Below are positions 28,513-37,375 of a DNA stretch of 40,212 nt, one piece after another (the first letter of the stretch is position 1; every line of letters begins with the position of its first letter). Made by a program: the position numbers and the translations under genes. The stretch spans positions 1 to 40,212 of the IMG/VR virus record IMGVR_UViG_3300028794_000193; one strand, given 5' to 3'. The stretch is from a virus. The notes beneath the pieces were generated by a model. The model was not told where the DNA came from. It worked only from the letters and a program-made list of their open reading frames with translations, and made no database searches.

Positions 28513-28886
28513 GTGGTCGGCCTCAGGCGTTCCAGCTGCGCCATGGCCTTGCTCATGACCTGCGCGGCCGAGTTGATCGTTTCGACCAGCTTCACCGACT
28601 GGTCTTCGACCGTCTTGCGGTCCGGCCTGGCGTGCAGCGTTTCGTCGCACTGGTAGTACAGCGGGTCATAGCGCTCGCAGAACTTCATCAGCGCGATGAC
28701 CTGCGTCCATTTGAACTGCTCGCTGCCCTTGCGGTCAAGGCAGTCCTTGAACTTGGCGTAGGCGCTCTCGGGCTTCATGTCCGGCCAGAGGTACGCAGAG
28801 CACTGTTTGACCGTCTTGCCGCTCCGCGCCTGCATGGTCTGCAAGGCGTCGTGCTCGTCTTCGTAAAAAAGGCGTTCGCTATTCAT
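28509..28886 (-). CDS. CII-like early regulator
   Basis: A 125-residue protein starting MNSERLFYEDEHDALQTM. Residues 10-60 form an HTH-like region (TMQARSGKTVKQCSAYLWP, ESAYAKFKDCL); the YYQCDETLHARPDRK motif and helical C-terminus are shared with many Burkholderiales prophage proteins in the cII position. It may activate lysogeny promoters. It is preceded by a nested palindrome (28895-28925) and followed by the wHTH gene with ATGA overlap. The CII role is inferred from position and HTH character. Confidence 0.6.
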   Translation of the reverse strand: MNSERLFYEDEHDALQTMQARSGKTVKQCSAYLWPDMKPESAYAKFKDCLDRKGSEQFKWTQVIALMKFCERYDPLYYQCDETLHARPDRKTVEDQSVKLVETINSAAQVMSKAMAQLERLRPTT

Positions 28887-29961: not shown

Positions 29962-30225
29962 TCAGGCTGCATCGCTAACCTCCACTGCGGTGGCGCGCTC
30001 GGCAGCGGCCAGCTCGGGCCAGTGCTCGGGCCAGTCCGGCCGCAGTTCCGGGCGCGACACCGCGCCCCTGCTCTCCCGCTCGATCCGCACGGCGAGGTCG
30101 GTAGCACACGACTTCTGGCCGTAGCCGATGTTGCGGAGGTGCCCGAGGGACGTCCCGCAGCGCTCCGCAAACGCGGTGCGCTGGCCGTCGTCCGACAGGC
30201 TCTTCAGGTAGGTCTTCAGGTTCAT
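29962..30225 (-). CDS. Cro-like (YdaS-type) repressor
   Basis: An 87-residue HTH protein. MNLKTYLKSLSDDGQRTAFA plus ERCGTSLGHLRNIGYGQKSC and the RIERESRGAVSRPELRPDW end match the YdaS/Cro-like family. It is read from the promoter overlapping the 30235-30273 operators; the -10 (30232-30237) puts the RNA start at or next to the A of the ATG (30225), so the mRNA would be leaderless. As in lambda it faces the cI-like gene. It probably acts as the lytic-side regulator of pR and pL. The family also contains antitoxins; here the context favours Cro. Confidence 0.82.
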   Translation of the reverse strand: MNLKTYLKSLSDDGQRTAFAERCGTSLGHLRNIGYGQKSCATDLAVRIERESRGAVSRPELRPDWPEHWPELAAAERATAVEVSDAA

Positions 30226-30231
30226 GCCGGA

Positions 30232-30273
30232 ATTACACCATTTGGTGTCACTTCGGTCAACACCCTTTGGTGT
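30232..30273 (-). promoter_or_regulatory. pR-like promoter with operator pair OR
   Basis: The 14-bp palindromes ACACCATTTGGTGT (30235-30248) and ACACCCTTTGGTGT (30260-30273) are spaced 25 bp start to start. The minus-strand promoter TTGACC (30255-30260), 17 bases, TGTAAT (30232-30237) lies across them. Repressor bound to either operator would cover the -35 or -10. The right arms of the palindromes also face the cI-like gene. Confidence 0.88.
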
Positions 30274-30296
30274 CGCCGCGGTGTTCCCATTCCGTG

Positions 30297-30686
30297 ATGG
30301 CCGACGACGCACTTATCCGGAAGAAGAACCTGATCCGCCTGGGGAAGAACTCGCGCGAGCTGGTGACGATCCTCGGCCGGACCTACAGTTATTGGCAGGG
30401 GTTGATGCACGACCCGAAGAAATCGTTCGGCGAGAAGATCGCCCGCGAGATCGAGGGACGGTGGGGCCTACCCCGTTTGTGGCTTGACGACGTGCACGAC
30501 GACCGCGAGCCCATCCCAGAGCCTGCGCTGCAAGGAGGTGCTCGCACAGGTCAACGCCTGAAGCCACTCAGTGAGAGCGCGATGCTGCTGGCACGACGGT
30601 TGGACGAACTTAGCGAGCCGCGTCGAGCCCGTGCAGTCGCCCTGATCGACCACACCCTGCGCACCTTCGAGGAAGAAGAGGCGTAG
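30297..30686 (+). CDS. Short CI-like repressor
   Basis: A 129-residue protein starting MADDALIRKKNLIRLGKNSR, with an HTH-like first half (LVTILGRTYSYWQGLMHDP, KKSFGEKIAREIEGRWGLPRL) ending in WLDD, the common closing of phage XRE repressors. It lacks any LexA/S24-type autocleavage domain, so induction cannot use RecA cleavage of this protein and needs another route, such as an antirepressor. The C-terminal half is helical and could oligomerise. It starts 24 bases beyond the second OR operator. The end overlaps a minus-strand gene by 136 bases. Confidence 0.75.
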   Translation: MADDALIRKKNLIRLGKNSRELVTILGRTYSYWQGLMHDPKKSFGEKIAREIEGRWGLPRLWLDDVHDDREPIPEPALQGGARTGQRLKPLSESAMLLARRLDELSEPRRARAVALIDHTLRTFEEEEA

Positions 30687-31069
30687 GCATCCTCAATCAC
30701 AGCCGATCGCCAGCTCAACGCGTGCGCCGTAGCCCGGGCCGCGTTCGTGAAGTCCCCGAGGATGACCCCCCCGTCGCGCGCCAGCGTAAAACTGAGTTCG
30801 CTTGCCAAGTGTTTGCAAGCCTGCGGCACCACTACCGACACGGCGGCGGGTCGGAACGGCGCGGGGCGAACCATCGCCGGCTGCAGCAGTCGAGCCACCG
30901 CGCCGAAGTCGCATCCCTCGCCGATCAGCACCAGTAGTGCTGACCGTGAGACGGCGGCACCGGCGAAAGCTGAACCAATGAGAGAATCCAAATCGGCGGC
31001 CGAGTCCCTCGTGATCGTCAGCGTGAACAGCCCTTTAGCTGTGTCCTCCCTGAAATATTCCTTCTCCAT
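30551..31069 (-). CDS. Protein of unknown family, antisense to cI end, candidate antirepressor
   Basis: A 172-residue frame, divergent from the luxR-like gene and convergent with cI. The first 125 residues look like a real fold: beta strand GLFTLTITRD, helix AADLDSLIGSAF, strand RSALLVLIGEG, helix FGAVARLLQPA, strand AAVSVVVPQ, helix LASELSFTLARD, strand GGVILGDF, helix ARATAHALS, loosely like STAS/SpoIIAA-type proteins. The last 45 residues lie on the cI complement, are Arg/Ser-rich, and may have been fixed by that overlap. A GGAG is 2 bases before the ATG, a tight spacing. Its position next to a LuxR-type gene resembles the qtip and apop antirepressor genes. The function is a guess. Confidence 0.5.
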   Translation of the reverse strand: MEKEYFREDTAKGLFTLTITRDSAADLDSLIGSAFAGAAVSRSALLVLIGEGCDFGAVARLLQPAMVRPAPFRPAAVSVVVPQACKHLASELSFTLARDGGVILGDFTNAARATAHALSWRSAVIEDAYASSSSKVRRVWSIRATARARRGSLSSSNRRASSIALSLSGFRR

Positions 31070-31075
31070 AGCTCC

Positions 31076-31110
31076 GCAGTTTGTCCAGAACTGTGTCAGG
31101 ACGAAACTGC
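31076..31110. promoter_or_regulatory. Imperfect inverted repeat between luxR-like gene and divergent gene
   Basis: GCAGTTTGTCC (31076-31086) and GGACGAAACTGC (31099-31110) are an inverted repeat apart from one extra base. They fill most of the 42-base gap between the start codons 31069 (minus) and 31112 (plus). This is where a LuxR-type protein controlling both genes would bind. Confidence 0.55.
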
Positions 31111-31111
31111 A

Positions 31112-31825
31112 ATGATTACGGACCCCATCGACGCGCTTGACCTACTTGAGGTGCTGGATGCGGTTGGGGCGGCCCGCTCCGCGATCGCGTTGTCAGCAGC
31201 TCTGGAGCGGCTCGCGGTGGGGGCTGGCTTGCGCCGCTTCGCGCTGATCCAGTTGCAGGATGCCGCACACGAGGTCGTCGCGGTGCTTCATAACTTGGTG
31301 GCGCCTCCACAGTTGGAGGAGCCTGGTGCCCAAGCTCTGATTTTGCGCGCGCTGGGAAGTCGTCGGTTTCCGGAGGTGCTGGATCAGCAGGTGCTTCCCG
31401 AAATGCAGTACGCGGTATCAGCGATGTGGCAGGAGGGTATGACCACCTGCGTGCTGATGGTCGGCCGTGATACCGAGATCGCTCCGCGCGCGGCCGCCGA
31501 CCTCCTTGGAATCGTGAGCCTGGCATCCAGCTACTCGGCGAGCGCGCTGGTGTCGATCGCGAAGACTGAGTGCCCTCTCACCATTCGCGAACTGGAGTGC
31601 CTAGTGCTGTTCGCCGCCGGCAGCAGCGCGAAGGAGACGGGCCGCCTGCTCGGCGTGAGCCCCCGCACCGTCGAGGAATACCTCGCGCGATGCAAGGGGC
31701 GAATGGGAGTACGTTCAACGCTGGCTGCAACCGCCGCGGCGTTGCGCCGCGGCTGGATAACCAATCAGGACATCGACGCAGCCGGCGTCAGCGTTAACCG
31801 CCGGTACGAGGCGTACCGAAAATGA
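31112..31825 (+). CDS. LuxR-type regulator
   Basis: A 237-residue protein. Residues 155-216 are a typical LuxR/GerE HTH: LTIRELECLVLFAAGSSAKE, TGRLLGVSPRTVEEYLARC, ending ATAAALRRGWI. The N-terminal 150 residues have the size of an autoinducer-binding domain (VLDAVGAARSAIALSAALERL, QYAVSAMWQEGMTTCVLMVG) but none of the invariant Trp/Tyr/Asp ligand contacts can be placed. A weak AGGA 10 bases upstream supports the start at 31112. The ATG follows the inverted repeat immediately. Phage LuxR-type receptors that sense host quorum signals are known; this one may sense a different ligand or partner with the next protein. Confidence 0.85.
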   Translation: MITDPIDALDLLEVLDAVGAARSAIALSAALERLAVGAGLRRFALIQLQDAAHEVVAVLHNLVAPPQLEEPGAQALILRALGSRRFPEVLDQQVLPEMQYAVSAMWQEGMTTCVLMVGRDTEIAPRAAADLLGIVSLASSYSASALVSIAKTECPLTIRELECLVLFAAGSSAKETGRLLGVSPRTVEEYLARCKGRMGVRSTLAATAAALRRGWITNQDIDAAGVSVNRRYEAYRK

Positions 31826-31914
31826 GTGCGAAGAGGGTTGCCATAGTGAGTTCCTTAAAGGACTGCAGGTCGACGTTGACCTGCGCTCACTATTGCCGCT
31901 CGCTCACTTCCTGA
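31822..31914 (+). CDS. Possible coupled 30-residue small protein
   Basis: The luxR-like stop overlaps an ATG (ATGA at 31822-31825) that opens a 30-codon frame, starting MSAKRVAIVSS and holding three Cys (residues 15, 21, 25). The overlap alone suggests translational coupling, but frames of this length occur by chance and the codons span a region with palindromes. It could be a peptide partner or a leader reading. Confidence 0.22.
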   Translation: MSAKRVAIVSSLKDCRSTLTCAHYCRSLTS

Positions 31915-31969
31915 CTAGATGTCAACCTGTCAGATTTACGGACATATCCCCGTGTGGTAATTGGATGCG
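31826..31969. other. Convergent gap with palindromes
   Basis: The gap between the converging luxR-like and autoinducer-domain genes holds a 20-bp dyad, GCAGGTCGACGTTGACCTGC (31865-31884; 9 of 10 base pairs match), and an outer inverted repeat ATAGTGAG/CTCACTAT (31843-31850, 31886-31893). No T-tract follows, so a simple terminator is not evident. The length and symmetry resemble a lux-type box. Apart from the small coupled frame at 31822-31914, I see no gene here. Confidence 0.5.
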
Positions 31970-32596
31970 CTAGGGATTCAGCGCGCGTCGCAACTCCTCG
32001 ATCTTGACCAGGCCGCCGCGCACGGCGTAGCTCAGCGCCCCCTCTCGGATCGCACCTGCCCACTCGCTTGACGCCACCTCGATCACAGCCGGGCGCGTGA
32101 TTCGCTCAACGCATTGCTGCGCCTGCAGGGCGAGCAGCCGGAGCGAAGCGTGCAACCGCAGCGCCGCGACAGGGTTTTCAGGAAGACGATCCGGGCCATC
32201 CACGCCCAGGAAGAACACTTCACCATGGCCAGGTGCGTGGTGCGAGATGGTCACGCCGCACCGGTATCCGAAGGCGGCCTGCAAGTCCCACAGATCCGCC
32301 GACCCCGCCTCCACATACGTGGATTGGTCGTACTTCACGACGCCGGGCCGCGCGAGGATCTGTCCCAGCACCGGGTCACGCAACCCGTCGGTCAGTGATG
32401 TCGCGCTCTGCAGGTAGGCCTCGGGCGGGTTCCCGAACGACTTGACGAGCCCACCAGCAGAGCCAAGTCGGCCGTGAACCAGCGCTCCCGAGACAAGCCC
32501 GAATCCCATCTCGTGCACGGCTTTCACCACCCGCGCCGTCAGGGTGTCCAGGTCCGGCGCTTCGCCGATCGAGTGCAGCAGCTGCGGGTCAAGCAT
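31970..32596 (-). CDS. Autoinducer-binding-domain protein without HTH
   Basis: A 208-residue protein, MLDPQLLHSIGEAPDLDTLT. Residues 15-165 have the order of motifs of LuxR ligand domains: FGLVSGALVHGR, then Asp74-Pro75-Val76 (DPVLGQIL), a Trp at 103, AAFGYRCGVTISHHAPGHGE (Phe109, Gly110, Gly114, His119-120, Gly124), then LRLHASLRLLALQAQQCVERI. After this only about 40 residues follow, with no recognisable LuxR HTH. It could therefore bind an acyl-homoserine-lactone-type ligand and act on another protein, for example the luxR-like partner. Start codons at 32596 and a GTG at 32632 both lack a good ribosome site. Confidence 0.7.
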   Translation of the reverse strand: MLDPQLLHSIGEAPDLDTLTARVVKAVHEMGFGLVSGALVHGRLGSAGGLVKSFGNPPEAYLQSATSLTDGLRDPVLGQILARPGVVKYDQSTYVEAGSADLWDLQAAFGYRCGVTISHHAPGHGEVFFLGVDGPDRLPENPVAALRLHASLRLLALQAQQCVERITRPAVIEVASSEWAGAIREGALSYAVRGGLVKIEELRRALNP

Positions 32597-32752
32597 GGAT
32601 GAACTGTAACGGCAAGCAGTCCTTTCGAACACCAGCTGAGCAGGCTGCTATGCGGGTTCCAATCACATCCAACACCATTTGGTGTTGACTTGTTCAACAC
32701 CATTTGGTGTAATTCCGCCGACCAGCCGCATCCCGTGGCCACGGAGGCTCAG
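32597..32752. other. Divergent control region before the rightward early operon
   Basis: No gene is evident here. It contains the pL-like promoter and OL operators (32671-32713), a leader of about 33 bases with a GGAGG ribosome site before 32753, and the upstream part of the autoinducer-domain gene. No promoter for the latter gene was identified. Confidence 0.7.
32671..32713 (+). promoter_or_regulatory. pL-like promoter with operator pair OL
   Basis: The palindromes ACACCATTTGGTGT at 32672-32685 and 32697-32710 are again 25 bp apart. The promoter is TTGACT (32685-32690), 17 bases, TGTAAT (32708-32713) on the plus strand, with the same layout as OR/pR. It should start RNA near 32720, 33 bases before the first start codon. 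Confidence 0.9.
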
Positions 32753-35515: not shown

Positions 35516-37375
35516 ATGACCACGCATGCGTTCATCTCCACCAGCAACATGATCCTGCTTCAGGCCTCGGCGCTGCCCGCCGATGGCGTGCTCATCCAGG
35601 CCGAATGGGAACTGGTGTACGACAGCCCCTACCAGTACCGCAAGACGCACAACGAAGCCAAGCTCACCGAGCTGGCCGACAACATCAAGGCGACCGGCGG
35701 CATTCACCAACCGATCCTGGCGCGCCGCCGCTTCACCAACACGCTGCGCAAGCCCTACGCGTGGGATCCGGCCGACGGCTTCGAGATCGTCGCCGGCCAC
35801 CGCCGCAAGATCAGCGGCATGCGTGCCGAGCTGCCCAGCGGCCCGCTGCTCGTGAAGGACCTCGACGACGACCAGGTGCGCAAGATCCAGATCACCGAGA
35901 ACCTGCAGCGCGAAGACGTGCACGCCATCGAGGAGGCCGAGGGCTTCCAGGCGCTCATCGACCTGGGCGACACGCCCGAGGGGCTCGCCAAGGACCTGGG
36001 CAAGAGCCTCAGCTACGTCTACGCCCGCATCAAACTGCTGCAGGCCTGCAAGCAGATCCGCAGCACTTGCCTGGCCGGCGACATCGGCGTCGAGGTGGCA
36101 CTGCTCATCGCACGGCTGCGCACCGACAAGCTGCAAGAGAAGGCGCTCGGGTACATCAAAGGCAAGAACATCCACCTGGAAGACGGCGGCAACAAGAGCC
36201 TGCGCCAGGTGCGTGAGCTGCTGAAGGAGCGTTTCACCCTCGGCCTGTCCAACGCCATGTTCGACCCCGGCGACGCGAACCTGCTGCCGCTCGCAGGCGC
36301 CTGCAGCGCCTGCCCCAAGCGCACAGGCAACGCGCCCGAGTACACCGACCTGGTCGCCGATCGCAAGGCACCGTGGGGCCAGACGCTCAAGGGCTCGGCC
36401 AACCTCTGCACCGACCCCGACTGTTTCGACGCGAAGAAGAAGGCGCACCTGAAGGCCAAGGCTGGCGAGTTGATCGCCAAAGGCAAGACCGTGGTCGACG
36501 GCAACAAGGCCCGCAACGCGATCGACGCAAGCGGTCGAATCAAGGGCGACTTCATCGCACTCAAAGACGTGAAGGACGAGCTGAAGAAGGCCAACCGGAA
36601 CACCCTCATGGGCGTGCCGTTGGAAAAGGCCATCGTGGTCACCATCCAAGATCCGCGCGACGGCAAAACGCACGACGCCGTCGCGGTTGCCGACCTGGTC
36701 GCCGCCGGCATCAAGTTCAAGGAGCAGGCGAAGAAGGGCAACCACCACATCGACTACGAAGCCGAGCGCCGCAAGCGGGAAGAGGAACGCCTGCGCGACG
36801 AGGCGAAGGCCAAAGCTGAAGGAGCGGTGCGAGCGGAGATCCTCACCAAGGTGATCGACGCAGCCAAGGCCGCGGCCCGCTCAACCTTCGACCTGCAGAT
36901 GGTCGCGCACGTGGCCTTCGCCGGCGTCGACTATCACGATCGCGCGGTTCTCGCCAAGCTGTACGGCGGTGGCAGCCGCGACGACGTGCACAAGCAGATT
37001 GGGTCGATGGATCCCGGCCAGGCGGCACTGTTCGCGCTCACCTGCGCGCTGGTGCAAGACGTGTACACGCACAGCGGCAACTACAAGAACATGCCCAAGA
37101 CGCTCACCGCGGCCGCGAAGCACTACGGCCTCGACATCGACGCCATTCGTGCCGGTTTGGAGGCGCCTGCAAAAACCGCTTTTACCCCACCTTCGGCTGC
37201 GCTGGCGCAGAAAAAAGCGACCGCTGGCGCAAGCGCAAAAAAATCCGCGACGAAGGCTGCGCCGGCGAAGGCCAAGAGCAAGGGCAAAGAGAAGGGAGAA
37301 GAACAGAAGGTTGACGCCGGCGTCGCCGGCGGGAGCGCTGGCCAGGTCGACGCGATTGAGGAGGCAGGGGCATGA
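35516..37375 (+). CDS. ParB-like protein with histone-like tail
   Basis: A 619-residue protein. Residues 40-140 are the ParB/Srx fold, including AGHRRKISGMRAE (about 94-105, like GxRR of ParB) and TENLQREDVHAIEEAEGF (127-144). A HTH-like region follows (TPEGLAKDLGKSLSYVYARI). Then an extended C-terminal half with CSACPKRTGN, a CTDPDCF motif that may bind zinc, and a helical region. The last 70 residues are Lys/Ala-rich (AQKKATAGASAKKS, KAAPAKAKSKGKEKGEE), like eukaryotic-type histone H1 tails. Phage ParB-like proteins act as CTP-dependent DNA clamps, nucleases or regulators; partition is less likely in an integrated prophage. It carries one GCAGGCGCCTGC copy. Confidence 0.82.
   Translation: MTTHAFISTSNMILLQASALPADGVLIQAEWELVYDSPYQYRKTHNEAKLTELADNIKATGGIHQPILARRRFTNTLRKPYAWDPADGFEIVAGHRRKISGMRAELPSGPLLVKDLDDDQVRKIQITENLQREDVHAIEEAEGFQALIDLGDTPEGLAKDLGKSLSYVYARIKLLQACKQIRSTCLAGDIGVEVALLIARLRTDKLQEKALGYIKGKNIHLEDGGNKSLRQVRELLKERFTLGLSNAMFDPGDANLLPLAGACSACPKRTGNAPEYTDLVADRKAPWGQTLKGSANLCTDPDCFDAKKKAHLKAKAGELIAKGKTVVDGNKARNAIDASGRIKGDFIALKDVKDELKKANRNTLMGVPLEKAIVVTIQDPRDGKTHDAVAVADLVAAGIKFKEQAKKGNHHIDYEAERRKREEERLRDEAKAKAEGAVRAEILTKVIDAAKAAARSTFDLQMVAHVAFAGVDYHDRAVLAKLYGGGSRDDVHKQIGSMDPGQAALFALTCALVQDVYTHSGNYKNMPKTLTAAAKHYGLDIDAIRAGLEAPAKTAFTPPSAALAQKKATAGASAKKSATKAAPAKAKSKGKEKGEEQKVDAGVAGGSAGQVDAIEEAGA

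Follow-up and report, generated by a model that had tools for sequence, protein, structure and literature searches.

In the virus record IMGVR_UViG_3300028794_000193 of IMG/VR (40,212 bases, G+C about 65%; its whole length is called the window here), two convergent genes beside a CI-like repressor encode LuxR-type proteins with complementary losses. The first, LuxR1, keeps the DNA-binding helix-turn-helix (HTH) and has lost the conserved ligand residues, while the second, LuxR2, keeps the autoinducer-binding domain and has lost the HTH. The same convergent pair is present in four further phages from IMG/VR (L014, L024, L025 and L027), and in all five the gap between the two genes contains a very short open reading frame (ORF) with the conserved C-terminal residues PRTGG. 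I tentatively read this arrangement as a two-protein LuxR switch for the control of lysogeny that acts via the PRTGG mini-peptide on CI, a model to which I give a little less than an even chance.

Complementary losses in LuxR1 and LuxR2

The two convergent ORFs were indeed found at the places given in the original prediction, luxR1 (P0001) at 31112..31825 on the plus strand (237 amino acids) and luxR2 (P0002) at 31970..32596 on the minus strand (208 amino acids). Both frames are intact and their codon composition is normal. The 237-residue protein had been described as carrying a LuxR HTH without ligand contacts, and the searches agree: LuxR1 matches GerE (PF00196) over residues 155-207 (E = 1.8e-9, 37.5 bits, cut-off 23.5), has no match to Autoind_bind in the Pfam search, and keeps none of the six TraR ligand-site residues W57, Y61, D70, P71, W85 and G113. 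Its profile matches full-length TraR in the PDB, and its predicted structure (predicted local distance difference test, pLDDT, 75) matches full-length LuxR proteins, the N-terminal part having a ligand-domain-like fold. Both its architecture and its predicted fold make LuxR1 a complete LuxR protein with a lost ligand site, rather than a free HTH, and DNA binding is probably retained.

LuxR2 matches Autoind_bind (PF03472) over residues 17-161 (E = 2.9e-7, 30.5 bits, cut-off 23), and neither GerE nor any other Pfam family, which upholds the claim that the 208-residue protein is related to autoinducer-binding domains and has no HTH. A possible HTH remnant in its tail was rejected, as it scores 2.0 bits, 15 of 287 scoring shuffles are equally good, and the best shuffle reaches 9.5. 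By eye, no HTH follows luxR2 in another frame either. The profile of LuxR2 matches full-length RhlR in the PDB. Fold prediction spoke less firmly here than for LuxR1: the predicted structure of LuxR2, at a weak pLDDT of only 58, is without an ordered C-terminal domain and matches the ligand domains of CepR2, TraR, RhlR, LasR and SdiA.

Most of the landmarks proposed for LuxR2 hold, as Asp74-Pro75, Trp103, Gly110 and His120 are invariant in all five LuxR2 proteins, but the supposed Gly124 is a histidine (His124). At the positions of Trp57, Tyr61 and Trp85 in TraR, the LuxR2 of the window has Tyr60, Ala64 and Tyr89, and its ligand site reads YADPYG, with three of the six TraR residues kept. Across the five phages the signatures are YADPYG, FMDPYG, YQDPYG, YMDPYG and YMDPYG, which gives a common form [YF]xDPYG in contrast to the usual WYDPWG found at the same six positions in five reference LuxR proteins (one of them with WYDGWG). 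In published work, replacement of W57 and W85 has been interpreted as pointing to ligands different from acyl-homoserine lactones (AHLs; PMC4338825), and an AHL ligand should therefore not be assumed. Given the altered site, an AHL is doubtful as the ligand of LuxR2; signal binding as such is probably retained.

The pair in L014 was first spotted among the relatives of the CI-like protein, and its order is a CI-like gene, an antisense gene overlapping the end of cI, luxR1 and, about 1 kb on, luxR2. Its LuxR1 and LuxR2 are 34% and 40% identical to those of the window, respectively. Additional small genes lie between luxR1 and luxR2 in this phage (L014:7929-8818), one of them HNH-like by eye. 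The pairs of L024, L025 and L027 were found by searching with alignments of the window and L014 pairs, and in all four relatives both LuxR proteins are full length. In each of the five phages the two genes are convergent and adjoin an XRE/CI-type gene; since these CI-like genes differ among the five, the pair moves between repressor types. An autoinducer-binding domain was detected in five of the 16 phage records tested, which are exactly the five carriers of the pair.

The division of tasks is visible in the domain scores, given here in the order window, L014, L024, L025 and L027 and read at the cut-offs above. LuxR1 scores 37.5, 44.4, 43.8, 42.1 and 28.4 bits against GerE, and none, 16.4, 18.9, none and 24.9 bits against Autoind_bind. 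LuxR2 scores 30.5, 35, 48.9, 45.1 and 51.4 bits against Autoind_bind, and none, 20.4, 19.6, none and 19.6 bits against GerE, all below the cut-off. In LuxR1 the ligand site is LxDPWG in L014, L024 and L027, whereas most of it is lost in the window and L025. Judged by these sequences, the trend over the five phages is a good HTH in every LuxR1, mostly combined with a poor ligand domain, and the reverse in LuxR2, and the complementary loss is most extreme in the window, followed by L025. What had been called complementary halves of one LuxR protein are hence better described as complementary losses, recurring in five phages, in a protein with the whole LuxR fold and in a LuxR protein minus its HTH.

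When the five reference proteins are included in a tree, the LuxR1 proteins form one group and the LuxR2 proteins another, and the two groups fall together, apart from the references. At small sampling and moderate support, this suggests common descent of LuxR1 and LuxR2; the two proteins of the window show no similarity to each other in BLASTP. For LuxR1 as for LuxR2, the protein of the window branches as sister to that of L025, so the two genes travel as a pair. No close relatives were found by single-protein pattern searches with P0001, P0002 and the neighbouring P0003 in viral contigs, or with P0002 in genome contigs. Searches with tblastn against plasmids and named phages gave generic LuxR matches only, and in 50,697 phage records neither the two LuxR proteins nor the mini-ORF had a match beyond generic LuxR similarity. 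A LuxR gene on a Burkholderia plasmid, examined for a paired partner, is a single gene.

A conserved mini-ORF between the two genes

In the convergent gap, on the strand of luxR2, all five phages carry a Shine-Dalgarno sequence followed by an ATG and an ORF of 16-27 codons that enters the end of luxR1 in antisense. In the window this mini-ORF lies at 31794..31844 on the minus strand, antisense to the last luxR1 codons, and encodes the 16 amino acids MATLFALIFGTPRTGG*; the corresponding peptides are MLSFLLQLLGIADAPQSQDFPRTGGGA in L014, MFDFLLALLGIRDYNPADLPRTGGGGN in L024, MSIFAALAELFSLPRTGGGGF in L025 and MVQFFLSLIGVLDLPRTGGGGA in L027. Strict conservation is confined to the five C-terminal residues, and the N-terminal part keeps its hydrophobic character in kind. 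The five PRTGG codons are invariant at every first and second position (ten of ten) and variable at every third one (five of five; p = 0.0003). The coding of luxR1 does not explain this pattern, because the luxR1 frame at this place differs between the phages. When all six frames of the 388 kb of collected DNA were searched, ORFs with PRTGG at the end, followed by no more than four residues, turned up at these loci only.

The leader of the mini-ORF (31843..31891, minus strand, in the window) folds into a nested hairpin, and in all five phages the Shine-Dalgarno sequence is paired within the stem; the pairing is kept while the stem sequences differ (z -2.0 to -4.4). Rfam gave 0 matches. About 90-95 nucleotides upstream of the mini-ORF start, GTAAAYCTGACAGG occurs as a single exact copy at the same place in four of the five phages, and the fifth keeps CTGACAG at this position. 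In the window the conserved site reads GTAAATCTGACAGG (31926..31939, minus strand) and is a candidate regulatory site. For the peptide itself, nothing of weight was found in NCBIfam, PHROGs and plasmids, where it should be noted that no searched family library covers it, and a search for a PRTGG peptide in the literature found nothing. Weak matches in Pseudomonas phage fall within a large gene and were dismissed as chance hits.

The strong, conserved hairpin adjoining the start codon could also mean that the mini-ORF is a mere translated leader or attenuator of an RNA element, without any function of the peptide, which would be compatible with a working LuxR pair and would fit the restriction of strict conservation to five C-terminal residues. 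However, an attenuator does not account readily for fixed first and second codon positions next to variable third ones, nor for a hydrophobic N-terminal part that is kept in kind, and there is no directly following gene to control, as luxR1 is oppositely oriented. I regard a function as leader only as unlikely.

A second alternative is that the genes of the window are relics, decaying copies of a full-length pair that no longer cooperate. The loss of the HTH from LuxR2 and of the ligand residues from LuxR1 could be seen in this light, as could the long tree branches of the window, exceeding those of most relatives. Decay is at odds, however, with intact frames of normal codon composition, with the retention of the family-invariant residues in LuxR2 and of a strong HTH in LuxR1, and with the fact that mini-ORF, Shine-Dalgarno sequence, hairpin and site are all still present. 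Moreover, L025 shows the same pattern, and the losses are complementary and not random. That the pair is defunct is in my view quite improbable.

The immunity region and its variable slot

The pair is located inside an interval delimited by operators. A 14-bp palindrome, ACACCATTTGGTGT, is present in four copies (one with a single change), arranged in pairs at 30235/30260 and 32672/32697, and a count of four was reached by no shuffle. The left pair, ACACC[AC]TTTGGTGT (30235..30273), with its copies 25 bp apart, overlaps a leftward promoter TTGACC-17-TGTAAT (30260..30232), and the right pair (32672..32713), with the same spacing of 25 bp, overlaps a rightward promoter TTGACT-17-TGTAAT (32685..32713). 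Both promoters are near consensus and were read directly from the sequence; a simple promoter scan missed them because it demands an A at the second -10 position. Between the operator pairs lie the CI-like gene (P0004, 30297..30686, plus strand, 129 amino acids), P0003, luxR1 and luxR2, and a Cro/YdaS-like regulator (P0005) is encoded at 29962..30225 on the minus strand. The module belongs to the lysogeny control of a temperate phage; its geometry is that of a lambda-like immunity region, and it occupies the place of rexAB-cI in lambda.

P0004 has an HTH but lacks a peptidase domain, and the whole record of the window yielded no S24 peptidase, confirming that the CI-like protein has no cleavage domain; the records of L014, L024, L025 and L027 contain none either. 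Judged by the missing domain, this repressor is not cleavable by the SOS route. The closest phage by primase (62%), L002, does have an S24 peptidase, unlike the five records with luxR1 and luxR2. It is part of an ordinary CI at L002:6618-7325, and L002 also has an integrase beside a bacterial lon-like gene. With an ordinary, peptidase-bearing CI in such a close phage, the immunity region must have been exchanged between relatives. A search of genome contigs with the CI alignment found nothing.

L006, which was found via the same operator pair, encodes a CI-like and a Cro-like protein that are 43% and 49% identical to those of the window, and carries an unrelated 188-residue gene in the slot between cI and PR. 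Including this phage, related CI proteins and operators are combined with different genes in the slot (equivalent to 30235-32714 of the window) in L006, L012, L013, L017 and L018. The slot is therefore variable, with the LuxR genes as one of its occupants. Such unrelated cargo in the relatives would fit the idea that the pair serves to interfere with the host, acting on the lysogen's own quorum sensing with LuxR2 as a ligand sponge or dominant-negative partner and without any role in the choice between lysis and lysogeny. Phage proteins that block host LuxR proteins are known, such as Aqs1 acting on LasR (PMC13043044), and a dominant-negative action is possible for LuxR proteins without an HTH. 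Yet the pair adjoins a CI-like repressor in each of the five phages, whatever the kind of repressor, and is always accompanied by the mini-ORF, the ligand-site signature of LuxR2 is unlike that of AHL receptors, and a sponge alone would leave the conservation of the LuxR1 HTH unexplained. I consider host interference unlikely.

The genes are also located where expression in the lysogen is expected, which would suit a signal-dependent pair that promotes lysogeny, as in the LuxI/LuxR systems of Phaeobacter prophages, where autoinducers that activate lysogeny have been reported (PMC13345283), a warning that the signal may favour lysogeny here too. A search of the five records for LuxI gave nothing, which is weak evidence as the search control failed, but the layout with a counter-oriented small ORF fits lysis-inducing modules, and promotion of lysogeny seems improbable to me.

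A divergent gene overlapping the end of cI had been put forward as a possible antirepressor. The ORF exists (P0003, 30551..31069, minus strand, 172 amino acids), is antisense to the 3' end of cI, and has a base composition compatible with coding; its start codon is separated from that of the divergent luxR1 by a gap of 42 bp (31070..31111) with an imperfect dyad, GCAGTTTGTCC/GGACGAAACTGC. The proposed role, in contrast, is unsupported, as P0003 has no match in Pfam, PHROG and NCBIfam, no detectable homologue, and is not conserved. At its place, L014 (6464-6949) and L024 (8709-9212) have genes that are related to each other (32% identity), show at most a trace of STAS similarity (E = 0.14, in one of the two), and overlap the 3' end of cI in antisense by about 190 nucleotides, as P0003 does likewise. 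There is no profile match between these genes and P0003, and relatedness could not be shown. In L025 and L027 no P0003-like gene was seen. Being absent or different in the relatives, P0003 is outside the conserved core, and the PRTGG mini-ORF, which the original prediction had overlooked, is the better effector candidate.

Outside the immunity region, the DNA at 28572-28868 of the window is about 73% identical to Shewanella phage vB_Sb_QDWS and 75% to Hujiaoplasma phage zrk29-1, the sole named-phage matches of the region around it. To the right, a ParB-like protein of 619 amino acids (35516-37375, plus strand) is about 31% identical to one in L005.

A possible switch and its relation to known systems

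Two kinds of known arrangement meet in the window. In bacteria, the HTH-less TrlR blocks TraR, and CerM, a protein that needs no AHL to bind DNA, is counteracted by CerN together with AHL (PMC11655674). The phage modules use VqmA, or a LuxR with an XRE protein, to activate a counter-oriented small ORF, the product of which inactivates CI without DNA damage (PMC10432266). By analogy, the mini-ORF occupies the position of these counter-oriented small-protein genes. Because the window combines the bacterial layout of an HTH-less partner with the phage layout of regulator and small ORF, I propose the chain LuxR2, LuxR1, mini-ORF and CI. In this chain LuxR1 would sit on the DNA as the regulator, and LuxR2 would sense the signal and act on LuxR1 by heterodimerising via the ligand-domain fold, like TrlR on TraR and CerN on CerM. 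A signal from the host or from neighbours, probably no standard AHL, would change LuxR2, and the changed LuxR2 would alter the occupancy of LuxR1 at the GTAAAYCTGACAGG site leading the mini-ORF, while the hairpin leader may further restrain translation of the mini-peptide. The peptide could then relieve repression by CI, possibly with or through P0003, resulting in an SOS-independent decision. The pairing, the ligand, the target site, the action of the peptide and the direction of the decision (lysis or lysogeny) are what I infer here.

Several observations count against this model. The structural model of LuxR2 is of low confidence, LuxR2 of three relatives retains a weak HTH-like domain, and GTAAAYCTGACAGG is only a candidate for a LuxR1 operator and differs from the classical lux box. 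The mini-ORF, with its 16-27 codons, is far below the size of the known ones (171 and 183 nucleotides) and could be a leader peptide. The model in its boldest form, in which a split pair of sensing and DNA-binding LuxR proteins answers to something other than a standard AHL signal and sets the choice between lysis and lysogeny through an ultra-short, structure-gated PRTGG peptide, possibly exported or a direct ligand of CI, is somewhat unlikely to be right in all its parts.

To my knowledge, the receptors in known phage quorum-sensing systems are single proteins, or LuxR with an XRE helper. An HTH-less LuxR partner in phages was not found reported in the literature, and the split two-protein version can be called undescribed in so far as phages and the literature searched are concerned, but not in bacteria, where HTH-less partners are known (TrlR, CerN). 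With five phages that have different repressors and in which the LuxR tasks are divided to a varying degree, the evolution of split receptors becomes directly testable. The common form [YF]xDPYG suggests a ligand yet to be assigned. The mini-ORF, if it is the true effector, would be among the smallest effectors of phage switches, and normal gene calling overlooks it.

The nearest phage counterparts are the modules of a transcription factor and a small ORF in linear plasmid-like prophages, vqmA/qtip of VP882 and xre-luxR/small ORF of Apop and ARM81ld (PMC10432266, PMC6456758). Like the module of the window, they belong to temperate phages and combine a quorum-sensing-type regulator with a small ORF in counter-orientation; in these modules XRE and LuxR can both be required, and their output on CI bypasses SOS. 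In contrast, the second protein of the window is an HTH-less LuxR-type protein instead of XRE, the CI operators enclose the module, the peptide of the small ORF has 16-27 amino acids (the known small ORFs measure 171 and 183 nucleotides), and the ligand-site residues differ, with sequence matches to named phages that are generic for LuxR only.

Among bacterial systems, the Burkholderia LuxR solos of group 8 are likewise neighbours in opposite orientation, 33% identical to each other and with W57Y/F, but both have both domains, and they are chromosomal, beside type III secretion genes and without a phage repressor (PMC4338825). TraR/TrlR of Agrobacterium also pairs an HTH-less LuxR protein with an HTH-bearing one (PMC11655674, PMC13043044), though TrlR is 88% identical to TraR, unlike the distant pair of the window. 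CerM/CerN of Cereibacter sphaeroides are adjacent LuxR homologues of 31% identity, one with an HTH and an altered W57 position, the other a ligand domain without HTH (PMC11655674). They differ from the window in being bacterial, in their sites FYDPWG and WYDPWG, in the LuxI in the locus, in that no small ORF is reported, and in their control of ctrA (PMC11655674). With a ligand domain lacking the HTH beside an HTH-bearing homologue, the pair of the window fits the TrlR/CerN kind.

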